Positions 6,520 through 12,021 of a DNA stretch of 64,000 bases are shown here, one piece after another. The DNA is from Sanguibacter keddieii DSM 10542 (lineage in GTDB: Bacteria > Actinomycetota > Actinomycetes > Actinomycetales > Cellulomonadaceae). A program made the translations under genes and the position numbers. Position 1 is the stretch's first letter. Every line of letters starts with the position of its first letter. The notes beneath the pieces were generated by a model. That model saw only the letters and a list, made by a program, of their open reading frames with translations. It was not told where the DNA came from and did not search any database. The DNA lies in contig NC_013521.1 in the NCBI RefSeq assembly GCF_000024925.1, positions 3,906,001 to 3,970,000 on the forward strand, read 5' to 3'.

Positions 6520-7605
6520 TCAGGCTGCGCGGCGCGCCACGGCCGCGAGCGCCGCGGCCCTCCCCGCGCGGGTGGCGCCGATGGTCGACGCACCTGAGCC
6601 GTAGCCGGCGAGGAGCACGCGGGGGTCGCGGTCGACGTGGACGCCGTCCGTCGCGATGCCACCGCCGGGCTCGCGCAGGCGCAACTGCGCGAGGTGGTCG
6701 ACGGCGGGCCGGAAGCCGGTGGCCCAGAGGATGACGTCGGCGCGGACCTCTCCGTCGGGGAACACGACCCCGGTGGGCGTGATCTCGGTGAACATCCCGC
6801 GGGAGACGAGCACGCCGTCGTCGATGCCCTGCTGGTAGACGGGCGTGAGCGGAAGGCCGGTGGCACCGACGACGCTCAGGGTGGTCAGGCCGGCGGAGGT
6901 CCGCTCGACCACGCGGCGCTCGACGTCGCGCCCCCACTCCTGGTCGAAGGCTCGGTCGTCGAAGACGGGCGGCCGCCGGGTGGCCCAGGTGGTCGTGGTG
7001 ACCTTGGCGAGCTGCAGCAGGAACTGGACGGCCGAGGCCCCACCGCCGACGACGACCACGTGCTGGCCGCGGAGCTCCTCGGCGGAGACGAAGTCGTGGG
7101 TGTGGAGCTGCCGCCCGAGGAAGGTCTCGCGCCCGGGGTACGCGGGCCAGTAGGGCCGCGTCCAGGTGCCGGTGGCGCTGACGACCGTGCGGGTGGTCCA
7201 CGAGCCTGCGTCGGAGCTGACGACGAGCGGTGAGCCTCGGTCGACACCGCGGTCGTCGACGTCCACGGGCCCGTCGGGCCCCTCGAGCGGGCGGACGTCG
7301 CGCACGCGGACCGGTCGGACGACGTCGAGCCCGAAGGTCTCCTCGTAGGTGCCGTAGTAGCGGCTGACCGCGACCGACGCGGGCTCGGTCGGGTCGGGGG
7401 CACCGATCGGCAGGCCGGGCAGGTCGTGGATGCCGTGGGCGGCGCCGAGGGTGAGGGAGTCCCAGCGTTCGCGCCAGGCGCCGCCGGGCCCGTCGCTCGA
7501 GTCCAGCACGACCATGTGCTCGCCAGGCTCGAGCCCGCTCCGGCGCAGGTGGTAGGCGGCCGACAGCCCGGCCTGCCCTGCCCCGATGACCACGACGTCG
7601 TACAC
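6520..7605 (-). CDS. FAD-dependent monooxygenase/oxidoreductase (flavin-containing monooxygenase-like)
   Basis: A roughly 360-residue flavoprotein with two Rossmann loops: GAGQAG at residue 8 for FAD and GGGASA near 190 for NAD(P)H. Between them lie PGGAWRERWDSL, typical of flavin-containing monooxygenases, and FLGRQLHTHDF, close to the FxGxxxHxxxY/W fingerprint of this class. ATGFRP near the C-terminus is also family-typical. It lacks a long C-terminal BVMO domain. GTG codons at 7611 and 7605 are possible starts; GGAG sits 5 nt before 7605 but only 1 nt before 7611, so 7605 is preferred. A TTGAACGTTCAA palindrome lies directly upstream. Substrate unknown. Confidence 0.85.
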   Translation of the reverse strand: MYDVVVIGAGQAGLSAAYHLRRSGLEPGEHMVVLDSSDGPGGAWRERWDSLTLGAAHGIHDLPGLPIGAPDPTEPASVAVSRYYGTYEETFGLDVVRPVRVRDVRPLEGPDGPVDVDDRGVDRGSPLVVSSDAGSWTTRTVVSATGTWTRPYWPAYPGRETFLGRQLHTHDFVSAEELRGQHVVVVGGGASAVQFLLQLAKVTTTTWATRRPPVFDDRAFDQEWGRDVERRVVERTSAGLTTLSVVGATGLPLTPVYQQGIDDGVLVSRGMFTEITPTGVVFPDGEVRADVILWATGFRPAVDHLAQLRLREPGGGIATDGVHVDRDPRVLLAGYGSGASTIGATRAGRAAALAAVARRAA

Positions 7606-7618
7606 CTGCACTCCTTGC

Positions 7619-7716: not shown

Positions 7717-8367
7717 ATGCCCACCTCGGAGACCACCGGACACGACAGCGCCCCGAGCAGCACCTCGACAGGATCCGCATCAGCCTTCGCCCCCGAGGCC
7801 TACGTCGAGGTCCTCACCTTCGACGGGACGGACCTCAGCGGGATCGACGCGGTCGACTCCCGGATCATCGAGTGCTCCTTCACCGGCACAGACCTCTCCG
7901 GCGCCGAGCTCGCCTCGTCCCGTGTGAGCGACTGCACCTTCGACGCGGTCAACGCCTCGACGCTCGACGTCTCCTCAGGCGACTGGCAGGACGTGACGGT
8001 CCGCGCGAGCCGGCTCGGCGGGGTCCAGGCCTACGGCTCGCAGTGGTCCCGGGTGACCTTCGAGGGCACCAAGATCGACTACCTCAACCTGCGCGAGGCC
8101 CGGCTGACGGACGTGACCTTCACCGACTGCGTCATCGGCGAGCTCGACCTGGCGTCCGTCCGCGGCACCCGGATGAGCTTTGTCGGGACGCGCATCGCCC
8201 AGCTCACGCTGTCCCGGGCCACCTTGACCCGCGCGGACCTGCGCGGCGCCGACCTCGGCCAGATCACCGGGATCACCGGCCTCAAGGGCACCACGGTGAG
8301 CACCGACCAGTTCCTCGACCTCGCGCCGCTGCTCGCCGCCCACCTGGGCATCTCGATCCAGCCCTGA
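7717..8367 (+). CDS. Pentapeptide-repeat protein
   Basis: A 216-residue protein. After a Ser/Thr-rich N-terminal tail (residues 1-25), the rest is built from five-residue A(D/N)Lxx-like repeats: FDGTDLSGIDAVDSRI, FTGTDLSGAEL, LTDVTFTDCVI, LTRADLRGADLG. These form a right-handed quadrilateral beta-helix. Some family members protect DNA gyrase (Qnr/MfpA); the regular 20-residue coils and the short C-terminal cap here do not decide between that and a structural role. Monocistronic; a strong hairpin follows the stop. Confidence 0.88.
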   Translation: MPTSETTGHDSAPSSTSTGSASAFAPEAYVEVLTFDGTDLSGIDAVDSRIIECSFTGTDLSGAELASSRVSDCTFDAVNASTLDVSSGDWQDVTVRASRLGGVQAYGSQWSRVTFEGTKIDYLNLREARLTDVTFTDCVIGELDLASVRGTRMSFVGTRIAQLTLSRATLTRADLRGADLGQITGITGLKGTTVSTDQFLDLAPLLAAHLGISIQP

Positions 8368-8499: not shown

Positions 8500-9948
8500 T
8501 CAGGCGTCGACCAGCGCACCCACCGGGCGGGCGACACCCTGGGCACCGGACCGTGCACCGGCCTCGGGCGCGGGGCCACAGCCCTCGGCGGCGGCGATGA
8601 AGCCGGCCGCAGCGGTCGCGATGAGGCCCGAGAGCCCGCTGCCCTCGGGCAGCGGACGGGGGTCGTCGGCCACGGTCCAGCAGGCGTCGACGATCTCGTA
8701 ACGGGCCGTCGGGCCGTCGGTGACGTAGCTCTCGAGGGCGGAGACCAGGCGGTCGACCTCTTCCTGCGTGGTCCCGACGCCGACGCTCGCGCGCACCGCC
8801 CCCGAGGCGTAGCCGAGGCGGGCAAGGAGCGGGTGGGCGCAGAAGCGACCGTCGCGCACGCCGATGCCGTGCTCGGCCGACAGGTACGCGGCCACGAGGC
8901 CCGGGTCGTGCCCGACGACCGAGAAGGTCACCACGCCGACCGGGTCTGCGGCGTCGGCCCAGGCGCGCACCACCTGGACGCCGGGGATCGACTCGAGCCC
9001 GGTCACCAGCCGCTCGCGCAGGAACGCCTCGTGCGCCTCGAGCGTGCCGGCGGGCAGCGCCGCGAGGGCGTCGCAGGCAGCGGCCAGTGCGACCGCGCCG
9101 ACCACGTTGGGCGAGCCGGCCTCGTGGCGGGCCGGGGCGTTCGTCCAGACGACCTCGTCGATGTCGACCTGACGGACGGCGCCGCCTCCGGCGAGGTACG
9201 GGGTACCGGCGTCGAGCCAGTCGCGACGGCCCACGAGCGCGCCGGACCCGAAGGGCGCGTAGGTCTTGTGCCCCGAGAACGAGATGTAGTCGACGTCCGT
9301 GGCCTCGAGCGAGAACCGGCGGTGCGGGACCAGCTGGGCACCGTCGAGTGCGACCCGCGTCCCGGCGGCGTGGGCGATCGCGACGACCTCGGCGACGGGC
9401 AGCAGCTCACCGGTGACGTTCGACGCCCCGGTGAGGGCGAGCAGCGCGTAGGGGGCGCGGGCCAGCTCGTCACGGATCGCCTCGAGCGTCTCGGCGACGG
9501 TTGCGGCGCCGTGCAGCACGGTCGCGCCGCCGGCCGACCGCTGCCAGGGCAGCAGGTTGGCGTGGTGCTCGACGTCGAGGACGAGCACCCGGCCCGGGGT
9601 GCCGTCGGCGTCGGCCGGGATGCAGCCGGCGAGCAGGTTGAGGGAGTCCGTGGTGTTGCGGGTGACGACGGTGACGTCGTCGCCGCGCGCCCCGACGAAG
9701 GCGCCGATCGTCTGGCGCGAGGCCTCGTAGAGGGCCGTCGACACCTGCGAGAGGTACCCGGCGCCGCGGTGCACGGACGCGTAGAGCGGCAGCACCTGGG
9801 TCACGCGGTCGGCGACGGCCTGGAGCGCGGGGGCGCTCGCTGCGCAGTCGAGATTGGCGTAGGTGACCGTGCGGCCGTCGACGAGCGGGACGAGGGTGTC
9901 CGAGCCGACGACCGGCAGGCAGGACTGGGACTCAGGGGTGGCAGACAT
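8500..9948 (-). CDS. Aminotransferase class V / cysteine desulfurase-like PLP enzyme, SAM-IV riboswitch controlled
   Basis: A 482-residue fold-type I PLP enzyme. The Schiff-base lysine is in FSGHKTYAPFG (about residue 227); EHHANLLPW, LDGAQLVPH and GAVRASVGVGTTQEEVDRL match cysteine desulfurases of the Csd/SufS type. About 80 residues after the core (TARYEIVDACWTV and an Ala/Gly-rich tail) are extra compared with the family. The ATG has GGAGG at 6-nt spacing. The leader contains a SAM-IV-type riboswitch, and rhodanese-metZ diverge on the other side. I infer a role in moving sulfur for methionine/cysteine metabolism rather than general Fe-S assembly; no suf genes adjoin. The exact reaction is unknown. 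Confidence 0.85.
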   Translation of the reverse strand: MSATPESQSCLPVVGSDTLVPLVDGRTVTYANLDCAASAPALQAVADRVTQVLPLYASVHRGAGYLSQVSTALYEASRQTIGAFVGARGDDVTVVTRNTTDSLNLLAGCIPADADGTPGRVLVLDVEHHANLLPWQRSAGGATVLHGAATVAETLEAIRDELARAPYALLALTGASNVTGELLPVAEVVAIAHAAGTRVALDGAQLVPHRRFSLEATDVDYISFSGHKTYAPFGSGALVGRRDWLDAGTPYLAGGGAVRQVDIDEVVWTNAPARHEAGSPNVVGAVALAAACDALAALPAGTLEAHEAFLRERLVTGLESIPGVQVVRAWADAADPVGVVTFSVVGHDPGLVAAYLSAEHGIGVRDGRFCAHPLLARLGYASGAVRASVGVGTTQEEVDRLVSALESYVTDGPTARYEIVDACWTVADDPRPLPEGSGLSGLIATAAAGFIAAAEGCGPAPEAGARSGAQGVARPVGALVDA

Positions 9949-10030
9949 GGATCCTCCAGGACGGTGTGGGGATCGACGCACCTGGGTCCGACCGAGTCCC
10001 GCGCTTGCCGGAGCCCGTCTGGGTCCGGCC

Positions 10031-10110
10031 AGGTCGTCACCCGGGGCACCCCACCGCGGAGGAGGGTTGCCGGCCAGCAAACCGGGGTTACGCGCTGGCA
10101 CTCATGACCT
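10031..10110 (-). promoter_or_regulatory. SAM-IV riboswitch
   Basis: On the minus strand the leader of the class V PLP gene opens GGTCATGAGTGCCAGC, continues through GCTGGCCGGCAACCCTCC and the pseudoknot-type strand GGGGTGCCCCGGGTGA, and closes with GACC pairing to the opening GGTC (P1). GCCAGC/GCTGGC forms P2, and GCAACC is the SAM-binding core shared by SAM-I and SAM-IV. This matches the SAM-IV class known from actinobacteria, recognised from memory of the consensus. Downstream, before the start codon, further GC-rich hairpins could act as expression platform. Expected effect: repression when SAM is plentiful. Confidence 0.85.
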
Positions 10111-10223
10111 GCGTCAAGGATTGGCGCGCCTCGGCGTCCATGTCAATCAGCGAGCACACTCTGTCTTGCATGCTGGACTGGCTGTCTCATTCTGGCGGTC
10201 GGGGGTGATGCTCAGGGGGACAA

Positions 10224-10320
10224 CCATCCAGAGCGGCTGAGTGACCTGGCACGACGACGCCGCAGCAACCCCTCCACGCACCGCGCGTCGGGGCGAGGGT
10301 GCTACCGCCAGGACCGATGG
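10224..10320 (+). promoter_or_regulatory. SAM riboswitch, SAM-I type
   Basis: CCATC at 10224-10228 pairs with GATGG at 10316-10320 (P1). Inside are CAGAGCGG, a kink-turn-like CTGAGTGACCTGGC ... GACGACGCC, the core GCAACC, and GGGTGCTACCGCCAGG, matching the SAM-I element (GAG, UGA, GCAACC, GGUGC-AA-UCC, GAUG). It lies 10 nt before the rhodanese ATG. The Shine-Dalgarno GGAGG (10319-10323) shares two bases with the 3' strand of P1, so ligand-stabilised P1 should limit ribosome access: translational control. It heads rhodanese-metZ. Confidence 0.85.
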
Positions 10321-10329
10321 AGGATCCTC

Positions 10330-10761
10330 ATGAGCTACGCAGGCGACCTGACCCCCCAGCAGGCGTGGGACCTGCTCGAGTCCACCCCCGACGCCGTCCT
10401 CGTGGACGTGCGCACCGTGGGCGAGTGGCAGCAGGTCGGTGTCCCCGACATCGCCGACCTCGACGGCGACCGCGAGGTCGTGTTCGCCGAGTGGGCCACG
10501 GCCTTCGGCCCCAACCCGACCTTCGTCGAGCAGCTCACCGAGGCGGGTCTCGCCCCCGGCGACGGCCGCCCGGTGATCTTCCTGTGCCGCTCGGGCAACC
10601 GGTCGATCGGCGCAGCCGTCGACGCCACGGCCGCGGGCCTCGGGCCGTCGTACAACGTGCTCGAGGGCTTCGAGGGCGACACCGACCTCTACGGCCAGCG
10701 CACCGTGAACGGCTGGCGCCTGCGGGGCCTGCCGAGCACCACCTACACCGCCGGGGAGTGA
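10330..10761 (+). CDS. Rhodanese-like sulfurtransferase
   Basis: A 143-residue single-domain rhodanese. The active-site loop is CRSGNRS with the persulfide cysteine at about residue 86; VLVDVRTVGEW near residue 24 is the first conserved block. It has no signal peptide, so acts in the cytosol. It follows a SAM-I riboswitch and precedes metZ by 6 nt, so the two are one operon. The pairing suggests that the rhodanese supplies or carries sulfane sulfur for homocysteine formation; this is inference. Confidence 0.9.
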   Translation: MSYAGDLTPQQAWDLLESTPDAVLVDVRTVGEWQQVGVPDIADLDGDREVVFAEWATAFGPNPTFVEQLTEAGLAPGDGRPVIFLCRSGNRSIGAAVDATAAGLGPSYNVLEGFEGDTDLYGQRTVNGWRLRGLPSTTYTAGE

Positions 10762-10767
10762 GCCCCG

Positions 10768-12021
10768 ATGTCGACCGCCCCCGACGCCTCGACCTCCGCC
10801 CCTGCCGATGACGGCTCCCCCGCCGTCCGCTCCCTGCGTCCTGCGACGGTCTCCGTCCGCGGCGGCCAGGTGCGCTCGGAGTTCCAGGAGACCTCCGAGC
10901 CGATCTACCTCACGCAGGGCTACGTCTACGACCGTGCCGCCGACGCCGAGGCCGCCTTCAAGGGCGAGACCGACCGGTTCATCTACTCCCGGTACGGCAA
11001 CCCGACGGTCCACATGTTCGAGGAGCGCCTGCGGCTCCTCGACGGTGCCGAGGCCTGCTACGCGACGGCGACCGGCATGTCCGCCGTCTTCACCTCGCTC
11101 GCCGCGCTCGTCCGGTCCGGCTCTCGCATCGTCTCGGCCCGCGCACTCTTCGGGTCGACCGTCGTCATCTTCGACGAGATCTTCGCGGACTGGGGTGTGA
11201 CGGTCGACTACGTGGACGGCCACGAGACCGACCAGTGGGAGGCGGCGCTGGCCACCCAGGCCGACGTCGTGTTCTTCGAGACGCCGTCCAACCCCATGCA
11301 GGACATCGTCGACGTCGAGCGGGTCTGCGAGCTCGCGCACGCGGCCGGCGCCGTCGTGGTGCTGGACAACGTGTTCGCGACACCCATCCTCCAGAAGCCC
11401 TTCGAGCTCGGCGCGGACGTCGTCGTCTACTCGGCGACCAAGCACATCGACGGGCAGGGCCGGGTGCTCGGCGGCGCGATCCTCGGCTCGACCGAGTACA
11501 TCGAGGGGCCGGTGCAGAAGTTCATCAGGAACACCGGGCCCTCGCTCAGCGCCTTCAACGCCTGGGTGCTGCTCAAGGGTCTCGAGACCCTGCCGATCCG
11601 CGTCGCCGCGCAGACGGCCGCCGCCCTGAAGGTCGCCGAGCACCTCGAGACGCTGCCGGGGATCACCCGGGTGCGCTACCCGTTCCTGCCCTCGCACCCG
11701 CAGCACGCGCTCGCCCTCAAGCAGCAGACGGGCGGCGGGACCGTGGTGACCTTCGACCTCGCCGTGCCCGAGGGCACCGACCCGGAGGCCGCCAAGAAGC
11801 GCACCTTCGCGTTCCTCGACGCCCTCGAGGTCATCGACATCTCGAACAACCTCGGCGACGCCAAGTCGCTCATCACACACCCGGCGACCACCACCCACCG
11901 ACGTCTCGGCCCCGAGGGGCGCGCCGCGGTGGGCATCGCGGAGACGACGGTGCGCCTGAGCGTCGGCCTCGAGGACGTGCAGGACCTCATCGACGACGTG
12001 GAGATCGCGCTGCAGGCCTGA
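10768..12021 (+). CDS. metZ: O-succinylhomoserine sulfhydrylase
   Basis: A 417-residue PLP enzyme of the Cys/Met metabolism family, making homocysteine directly from an activated homoserine and sulfide. It shows YSRYGNPTV, the cofactor region ATATGMSAVF, VFFETPSNPMQDIVD, VLDNVFATP and the lysine in SATKHIDGQGR (about residue 225). GPSLSAFNAW and the C-terminal SVGLEDVQDLIDD complete the family pattern. It is closer to MetZ than to the larger MetY. Under the same SAM riboswitch as the rhodanese, fitting feedback by the pathway end product. Whether succinyl- or acetyl-homoserine is used cannot be settled from sequence. Confidence 0.9.
   Translation: MSTAPDASTSAPADDGSPAVRSLRPATVSVRGGQVRSEFQETSEPIYLTQGYVYDRAADAEAAFKGETDRFIYSRYGNPTVHMFEERLRLLDGAEACYATATGMSAVFTSLAALVRSGSRIVSARALFGSTVVIFDEIFADWGVTVDYVDGHETDQWEAALATQADVVFFETPSNPMQDIVDVERVCELAHAAGAVVVLDNVFATPILQKPFELGADVVVYSATKHIDGQGRVLGGAILGSTEYIEGPVQKFIRNTGPSLSAFNAWVLLKGLETLPIRVAAQTAAALKVAEHLETLPGITRVRYPFLPSHPQHALALKQQTGGGTVVTFDLAVPEGTDPEAAKKRTFAFLDALEVIDISNNLGDAKSLITHPATTTHRRLGPEGRAAVGIAETTVRLSVGLEDVQDLIDDVEIALQA

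Follow-up and report, generated by a model that had tools for sequence, protein, structure and literature searches.

Rhodanese and metZ genes lie side by side in mycobacteria, in what we take to be the Rv0390-Rv0391 pair; we know of no divergent PLP gene or SAM-I element there. The MetJ protein uses SAM. In Vibrionales, MetJ is predicted to control the desulfurase gene csd (PMC4239095). A desulfurase would thus be under SAM-dependent control in Vibrionales as well as at the locus described here, although the regulator of these Proteobacteria is a protein repressor, whereas here it is RNA. Published annotations put a SAM-IV riboswitch before a cysteine desulfurase gene in Streptomyces lividans (SLIV_26975), whose genome has a separate SAM riboswitch at another site (PMC8079986). 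In S. clavuligerus the gene behind SAM-IV encodes a class V PLP protein (PMC8269248), and in other Actinobacteria SAM-IV has been described upstream of genes of metXY type (PMC4239095, PMC3774663). The features that define the two classes are listed in the structural literature: a double pseudoknot with P5 and PK-2 and no P4 for SAM-IV (PMC6890682), and a P4 hairpin, a kink-turn and the absence of a second pseudoknot for SAM-I (PMC7270179).

The locus analyzed here carries one element of each type, divergently arranged. A two-class divergent layout, a natural SAM-I element without P4 and the tail cysteine of the enzyme family described below were not found in the accessible parts of the open-licence literature, which is weak evidence of absence.

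Organization of the locus

The window is a 64 kb stretch of the Sanguibacter keddieii genome, which is 4.25 Mb long and in one contig. Scanning it with 4227 Rfam families, and keeping the best match among related families, gave three matches above cut-off: SAM-IV, SAM and one tRNA. The SAM-IV match (RF00634) is at 10109-9996 on the minus strand, with 110 bits and an E-value of 2.1e-19 (cut-off 38), and the SAM match (RF00162) is at 10221-10323 on the plus strand, with 53 bits and an E-value of 2.3e-9 (cut-off 44.4). The initial annotation had proposed two divergent SAM aptamer classes before a cysteine-desulfurase-like gene and a rhodanese-metZ unit, and had named these two Rfam models as the check; both exceed their gathering cut-offs, and the proposal is borne out. 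By the Rfam coordinates the aptamers are separated by 111 nt (10110-10220), not 113 nt as first given. This stretch is the presumed site of both promoters. No sigma-70-type promoter consensus was found in it, a scan that is uninformative for an actinobacterium. Two transcripts would start within the gap and run apart, each opening with a SAM aptamer.

The minus-strand unit encodes a SufS-like class V PLP enzyme of 482 residues (8500-9948). Its putative ribosome-binding site (RBS), GGAGG at 9953-9957 as read off the sequence, is 39-43 nt downstream of the aptamer and 4 nt 5' of the ATG at 9948. On the plus strand, a putative RBS GGAGG at 10319-10323 is followed by a rhodanese-like sulfurtransferase of 143 residues (10330-10761; PF00581, 28.4 bits, cut-off 22.2), which has the active-site loop CRSGNRS with Cys86. 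The next gene encodes MetZ, an O-succinylhomoserine sulfhydrylase of 417 residues (10768-12021; NCBIfam NF005870, 731 bits, cut-off 618; TIGR01325, 590 bits, cut-off 510).

The SAM-IV riboswitch

The minus-strand RNA can be assigned with strong confidence to the SAM-IV riboswitches, and it is predicted to bind SAM. The match to RF00634 is full-length, including P1, P2a/b, P3, P5 and both pseudoknots, and the aptamer does not differ from the family in any respect. It has the double pseudoknot with P5 and PK-2, and it has no P4. All 27 nested and 9 pseudoknot pairs of the written structure are Watson-Crick in the window. Among 17 sequences, 95.7% of the cells pair (100% in PK-1 and 86.2% in PK-2), and 13 pairs have changed on both sides, compared with 5.0 in shuffles and 6 in the best slid version. 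The plus element is absent from the genome-wide SAM-IV matches at E<=1 among the 150 candidates scored. The class named in the initial annotation is therefore right, but the extent given there, 10031-10110, is too short: the aptamer reaches 9996, 35 nt beyond 10031, since P5 lies at 10029-9996 together with the 3' strand of PK-2.

Two more SAM-IV elements are present in the same genome, ~80 kb from the locus and 8 kb apart (L002, 1501-1612, 79.6 bits; L003, 1501-1613, 66.8 bits). They precede a flavin reductase and a dipeptide/nickel-type ABC permease, and ABC ATPase domains are found near them. This region is likely a SAM-controlled sulfur-scavenging cluster.

A SAM-I-like riboswitch without P4

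There is also strong indication that the plus-strand RNA is a SAM-I-like riboswitch without P4, for which SAM binding is also predicted. Its written structure consists of P1 (10224-10228 with 10316-10320), P2a, P2b, P3 and PK-1 (10245-10249 with 10308-10312), and in the window each of its pairs, 20 nested and 5 in the pseudoknot, is Watson-Crick. In 18 sequences 98.4% of the cells pair (92.2% in PK-1). Five pairs have changed on both sides, compared with 2.0 in shuffles and 1 in the best slid version; P1 and P3 are invariant across the 18 rows and are uninformative on co-variation either way. The kink-turn in P2, a tandem G.A formed by G19, A20, G36 and A37, is found in all 18 rows, and the five pairs of PK-1 in the window connect the P2 loop with J3/4. 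The ligand-contact and kink-turn bases, as mapped to T. tengcongensis, are unchanged in 18 of 18 rows. As in SAM-I, PK-2 is absent: the aptamer stops at P1 and the RBS comes immediately after. The minus element is not among the genome-wide SAM matches at E<=1 (150 candidates scored), and the SAM-I-IV variant RF01725 has no match anywhere in the genome at E<=1, with all 53 candidates scored.

The P4 hairpin is missing. In all 18 rows only 2-3 nt separate the 3' strand of PK-1 from P1 (3 nt in the window). Compared with the translational form of SAM-I (S-box, RF00162), the element shares the core, the kink-turn, PK-1 and the position of the RBS on the 3' side of P1, and differs in the absence of P4. 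A SAM-I-type element had been annotated at 10224-10320; the RF00162 match, core, kink-turn and PK-1 agree with that, but P4 is absent and the span is 10221-10323.

An element of this kind could also be a decayed S-box that has lost P4 together with its response to SAM. The missing hairpin, the score of only 53 bits against RF00162 and the fact that 12 of 20 spread relatives fall below the cut-off would all fit decay. However, the core, the kink-turn and PK-1 have been kept over the 18 rows, and elements without P4 are found again in five other family codes, some of them before sulfur- or methionine-type ORFs. We consider decay extremely improbable.

The recurrence was seen with a model of our own. 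Among the 30 best phylum-wide matches to RF00162, GGTGC is followed by at least 32 nt in 25 of the 25 that are readable, compared with 21 nt in the window, with hairpins recognized by eye; this list leans toward P4-bearing elements because the Rfam model contains P4. Our model, R1, was trained on P4-less elements and its ranking therefore favors them. In a class-wide search it gave matches in 146 of 296 genomes. Twenty-nine R1 loci were taken (L185-L213), of which 28 are readable: 11 are P4-less, and 17 have a P4-looking insertion by eye, which is short in L212. The ten best readable loci (60 bits or more) are all P4-less, and one of them, L189, is from the window's own family. The 11 P4-less loci fall in family codes f1, f2, f7, f88, f96 and f102, five of which lie beyond the window's family. 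Since they are spread over several family codes, the P4-less form is, on sequence comparison, a wider actinobacterial variant and not a product of local decay. The putative targets, taken as the first long ORF downstream, were read for seven P4-less elements: one belongs to the nitrite/sulfite reductase family, one is methionine-synthase-like, two are ABC ATPases, and the remaining three code for a peroxiredoxin, an AMP-binding enzyme and a protein of 2OG-oxygenase type. A P4-less form of SAM-I would show that the class-defining P4 helix is dispensable in nature.

The same genome has a second SAM-I-like element, which is one of the 18 rows and also P4-less (L006, 1501-1605). It precedes metF, whose product, methylenetetrahydrofolate reductase, scores 232 bits, below the cut-off of 294. 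In a genome of another family (G684, contig C4, 121739-132568), three R1 matches are found within 11 kb; L185, the one that was read, is P4-less.

Probable control of translation

In the plus-strand leader, the 3' strand of P1 (GAUGG) runs on as the RBS GGAGG, such that the first two bases of the RBS are the last two of P1, and the ATG is 6 nt further. Since the RBS is part of P1, its anatomy suggests that control of this unit is most likely translational. Translational SAM-I riboswitches with the RBS built into P1 have been described (PMC2258182). GATGG leads straight into GGAGG or GGGAGG in 42 of the 49 matches to a strict pattern; these 49 were found in 130 loci (50 family and 80 named, some from the same genomes) and are not a full count. 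The RBS is further down in the other seven (L010-L013 and, from the same genomes, L074, L075 and L077), so that its inclusion in P1 is not universal. In 11 of the 49 the start codon was read directly from the sequence: it is an ATG 7-9 nt past P1 in ten, and a GTG 14 nt past P1 in one (L108).

No terminator-like site was found in the region. Neither leader showed two alternative states when its RNA was folded with and without P1; for the plus strand, translational control is therefore deduced from the anatomy, and for the minus strand it is only a guess. In the folding, the RBS of the SAM-IV leader is paired at four of its five bases in every modelled state. Part of the plus-strand RBS pairs with P1, and when the P1 5' strand is blocked, pairing of this RBS rises to four of its five bases. 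An antiterminator-type pairing of ACCUGG, on the P1 side of SAM-IV, with CCAGGU in the leader was rejected, as the RBS remains paired there too. With abundant SAM, each aptamer would fold, with its RBS becoming less accessible; under SAM shortage, both units would be translated.

The PLP enzyme and its C-terminal cysteine

The PLP enzyme (PF00266, 276 bits) shares with SufS-type cysteine desulfurases the fold, the PLP lysine and the catalytic-loop cysteine. The best Foldseek match of the predicted model (mean pLDDT 84) is 7ruj, a SufS-type protein, with a TMt of 0.85 and 32% identity. Lys228 and Cys370 align with the lysine of the SGHK motif and the active-site-loop cysteine of a solved desulfurase. 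We infer that the protein is a cysteine desulfurase, an activity predicted from these likenesses. It differs from SufS in its score of 287.7 bits against NCBIfam TIGR01979, which is below the cut-off of 475.1, and in a C-terminal extension of about 75 residues that includes an invariant cysteine, Cys457 (codon 8580-8578).

Lys228, Cys370 and Cys457 are each found in 50 of 50 family loci. In a cross-family alignment of 35 sequences, no position beyond residue 405 is invariant other than Tyr417 and Cys457. The tail at 444-482 is disordered and variable, with pLDDT under 50. A cysteine more than 30 residues after the catalytic one is present in all 127 readable loci (of 130), and in 120 it is at most 15 residues from the end; the 127 are loci and not distinct genomes, as the family and named sets overlap. 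The catalytic-motif pattern failed in the other three (L121, L123 and L132), whose tails also hold a near-end cysteine. In the Rhodococcus, Prescottella and Jiangella sequences, the tail cysteine is the last residue but one.

A precedent for a second cysteine comes from the ergothioneine synthase (MES) of Caldithrix abyssi. There, product formation requires both the catalytic Cys1074 and the tail Cys1135, a persulfide relay is proposed, and the desulfurase module is printed as residues 747-1136 (PMC9516567). Both proteins are of desulfurase type and have, besides the catalytic cysteine, one near the C-terminus, which was shown to be essential in Caldithrix. The Caldithrix module differs in being IscS/NifS-like, in its fusion to a metallopterin module and in delivering sulfur to trimethylhistidine. 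Because the tail cysteine is conserved, the tail has low pLDDT and the Caldithrix precedent exists, we propose by analogy that Cys457 may serve as a mobile sulfur relay. The conserved tail cysteine thus lets a built-in sulfur relay be predicted and tested directly, and together with the P4-less aptamer it is the part of the locus most worth a specialist's test.

The SufS fold and the PDB neighbors could instead indicate a second desulfurase for iron-sulfur assembly or tRNA thiolation, placed under SAM control by happenstance. Yet the genome has its own separate SufS (509 bits, cut-off 475.1), which has no such tail cysteine, as well as an IscS/NifS-like protein, and the SAM-IV leader points to methionine status. 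A role of this type is very unlikely.

Conservation across relatives

The family of the window genome is Cellulomonadaceae, and the members named in our sample include Cellulomonas, Oerskovia, Cellulosimicrobium, Promicromonospora and Isoptericola. Among 150 family genomes, the PLP gene is found in 123 (E<=1e-60), the rhodanese gene in 124 (E<=1e-20), and SAM-IV and SAM elements in 134 each (E<=0.01), with 130 above the SAM cut-off. For close reading, 50 PLP-gene loci were used, consisting of the 30 best matches (including that of the window) and 20 spread over genera. A plus-type element is present at 47 of the 50, namely the window and 46 of the 49 others by R1, whose 18 training rows include the window and 16 of these 49. 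It is missing at L040, L051 and L056, and L040 and L056 are also without an adjacent rhodanese or metZ gene. Judged by Rfam's own cut-off, the plus element is recognized in no more than 8 of the 20 spread loci and in 7 of the 8 named family loci, while SAM-IV is at the PLP gene in 20 of 20 and 8 of 8.

Eighty named loci were sorted by title and similarity into 49 inside and 31 outside the family; L130, from an unplaced member of Micrococcales with 61% identity, could belong inside. A plus-type element is present in 47 of the 49 (one is broken by a contig end). The outside loci come from Nocardioides, Geodermatophilaceae, Rhodococcus, Jiangella, Arthrobacter, Microbacteriaceae and others. None of the 31 has a plus-type element, and none has a rhodanese or metZ match at E<=1e-6 within about 3 kb on either side; in 25 of them Rfam places SAM-IV directly upstream of the PLP gene. 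Since SAM-IV accompanies the PLP gene outside the family without rhodanese or metZ, these two look like the older unit, judging from their distribution, to which the divergent rhodanese-metZ unit with its P4-less element was apparently added later in this family.

The initial annotation had called the coupling unusual. That does not apply to the desulfurase-like target of SAM-IV, which is already known from the two Streptomyces reports (PMC8079986, PMC8269248) and recurs in the outside loci. It does apply to the divergent rhodanese-metZ unit, which is special to the family; the two-class divergent layout is a family-level addition.

The six outside loci without SAM-IV are L135 (Nocardioides lianchengensis), L139 and L140 (Microbacteriaceae MAGs), L143 (Leifsonia), L144 (Cryobacterium) and L148 (Glaciihabitans). 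The last five, whose genera we presume to be Microbacteriaceae, have kept the PLP gene and the tail cysteine, and no Rfam SAM element was found upstream; another regulator likely acts on the PLP gene there. In L129, from a Klenkia MAG, two SAM-IV elements are back to back (2609-2718 and 2814-2926), one before the PLP gene and the other before ORFs that resemble flavin-dependent monooxygenases by eye.

A possible route from cysteine to homocysteine

The locus is probably a SAM-repressed sulfur-supply divergon that moves sulfur from cysteine to homocysteine. Placing the PLP enzyme in methionine sulfur supply, as was first suggested, remains the best reading, for which its SAM-IV leader and the rhodanese-metZ neighbor speak. 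In the proposed route, the PLP desulfurase would take the sulfur of cysteine as a persulfide on Cys370. The persulfide would pass to the mobile tail Cys457 and then to Cys86 of the rhodanese, and MetZ would use released sulfide or the bound persulfide to convert O-succinylhomoserine to homocysteine. Cys86 is present in 42 of 42 rhodanese homologues read, as counted in the aligned column, and the best PDB match of the rhodanese is 2fsx (E 5.8e-43), presumably the mycobacterial rhodanese mentioned above. No sulfite reductase of the PF01077 family was found in the genome, as its two PF01077 proteins are both NirB (above the TIGR02374 cut-off). Therefore, a supply of sulfide from sulfate is not apparent, and cysteine would be a plausible source.

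The two units may also be methionine-regulated but metabolically separate, in which case the PLP enzyme would be a general scavenging C-S lyase or desulfurase, adjacent to rhodanese-metZ by chance or through promoter sharing. The outside loci that keep SAM-IV at the PLP gene, none with rhodanese or metZ nearby, would be expected in that case, and they mean that the PLP enzyme may have a partner other than rhodanese-MetZ. The genome's two further SAM-IV elements precede scavenging-looking genes (the flavin reductase and the ABC permease), which fits as well. On the other hand, the PLP unit keeps a plus-type element next to it in nearly all of the closely read family loci, even with ~1 kb between the aptamers (e.g. 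L016). Separate roles are less likely than a shared one, although they deserve serious consideration.

The sulfur-supply divergon is our preferred reading, and a more specific form of it is tentative and somewhat doubtful. It holds that the locus encodes a distinct methionine route, in which a SAM-repressed desulfurase with a cysteine arm feeds the rhodanese and then MetZ, bypassing cystathionine and sulfite reductase; one unit would be controlled by SAM-IV and the other by the P4-less SAM-I as a separate architecture of the SAM clan. The same genome encodes two MetY-type proteins above the TIGR01326 cut-off, so that MetZ is not the sole sulfhydrylase, and a cystathionine-lyase-like protein below its cut-off.

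At this locus two SAM aptamer classes would serve one pathway within one cell, which allows a natural comparison of the two, and the locus suggests a function for an enzyme family under SAM-IV control that is found in several actinobacterial families. The neighbors of the PLP gene on its other side are a pentapeptide-repeat protein (7717-8367, plus strand) and an ArsO-like flavin monooxygenase (6520-7611, minus strand), the latter scoring below its cut-off.
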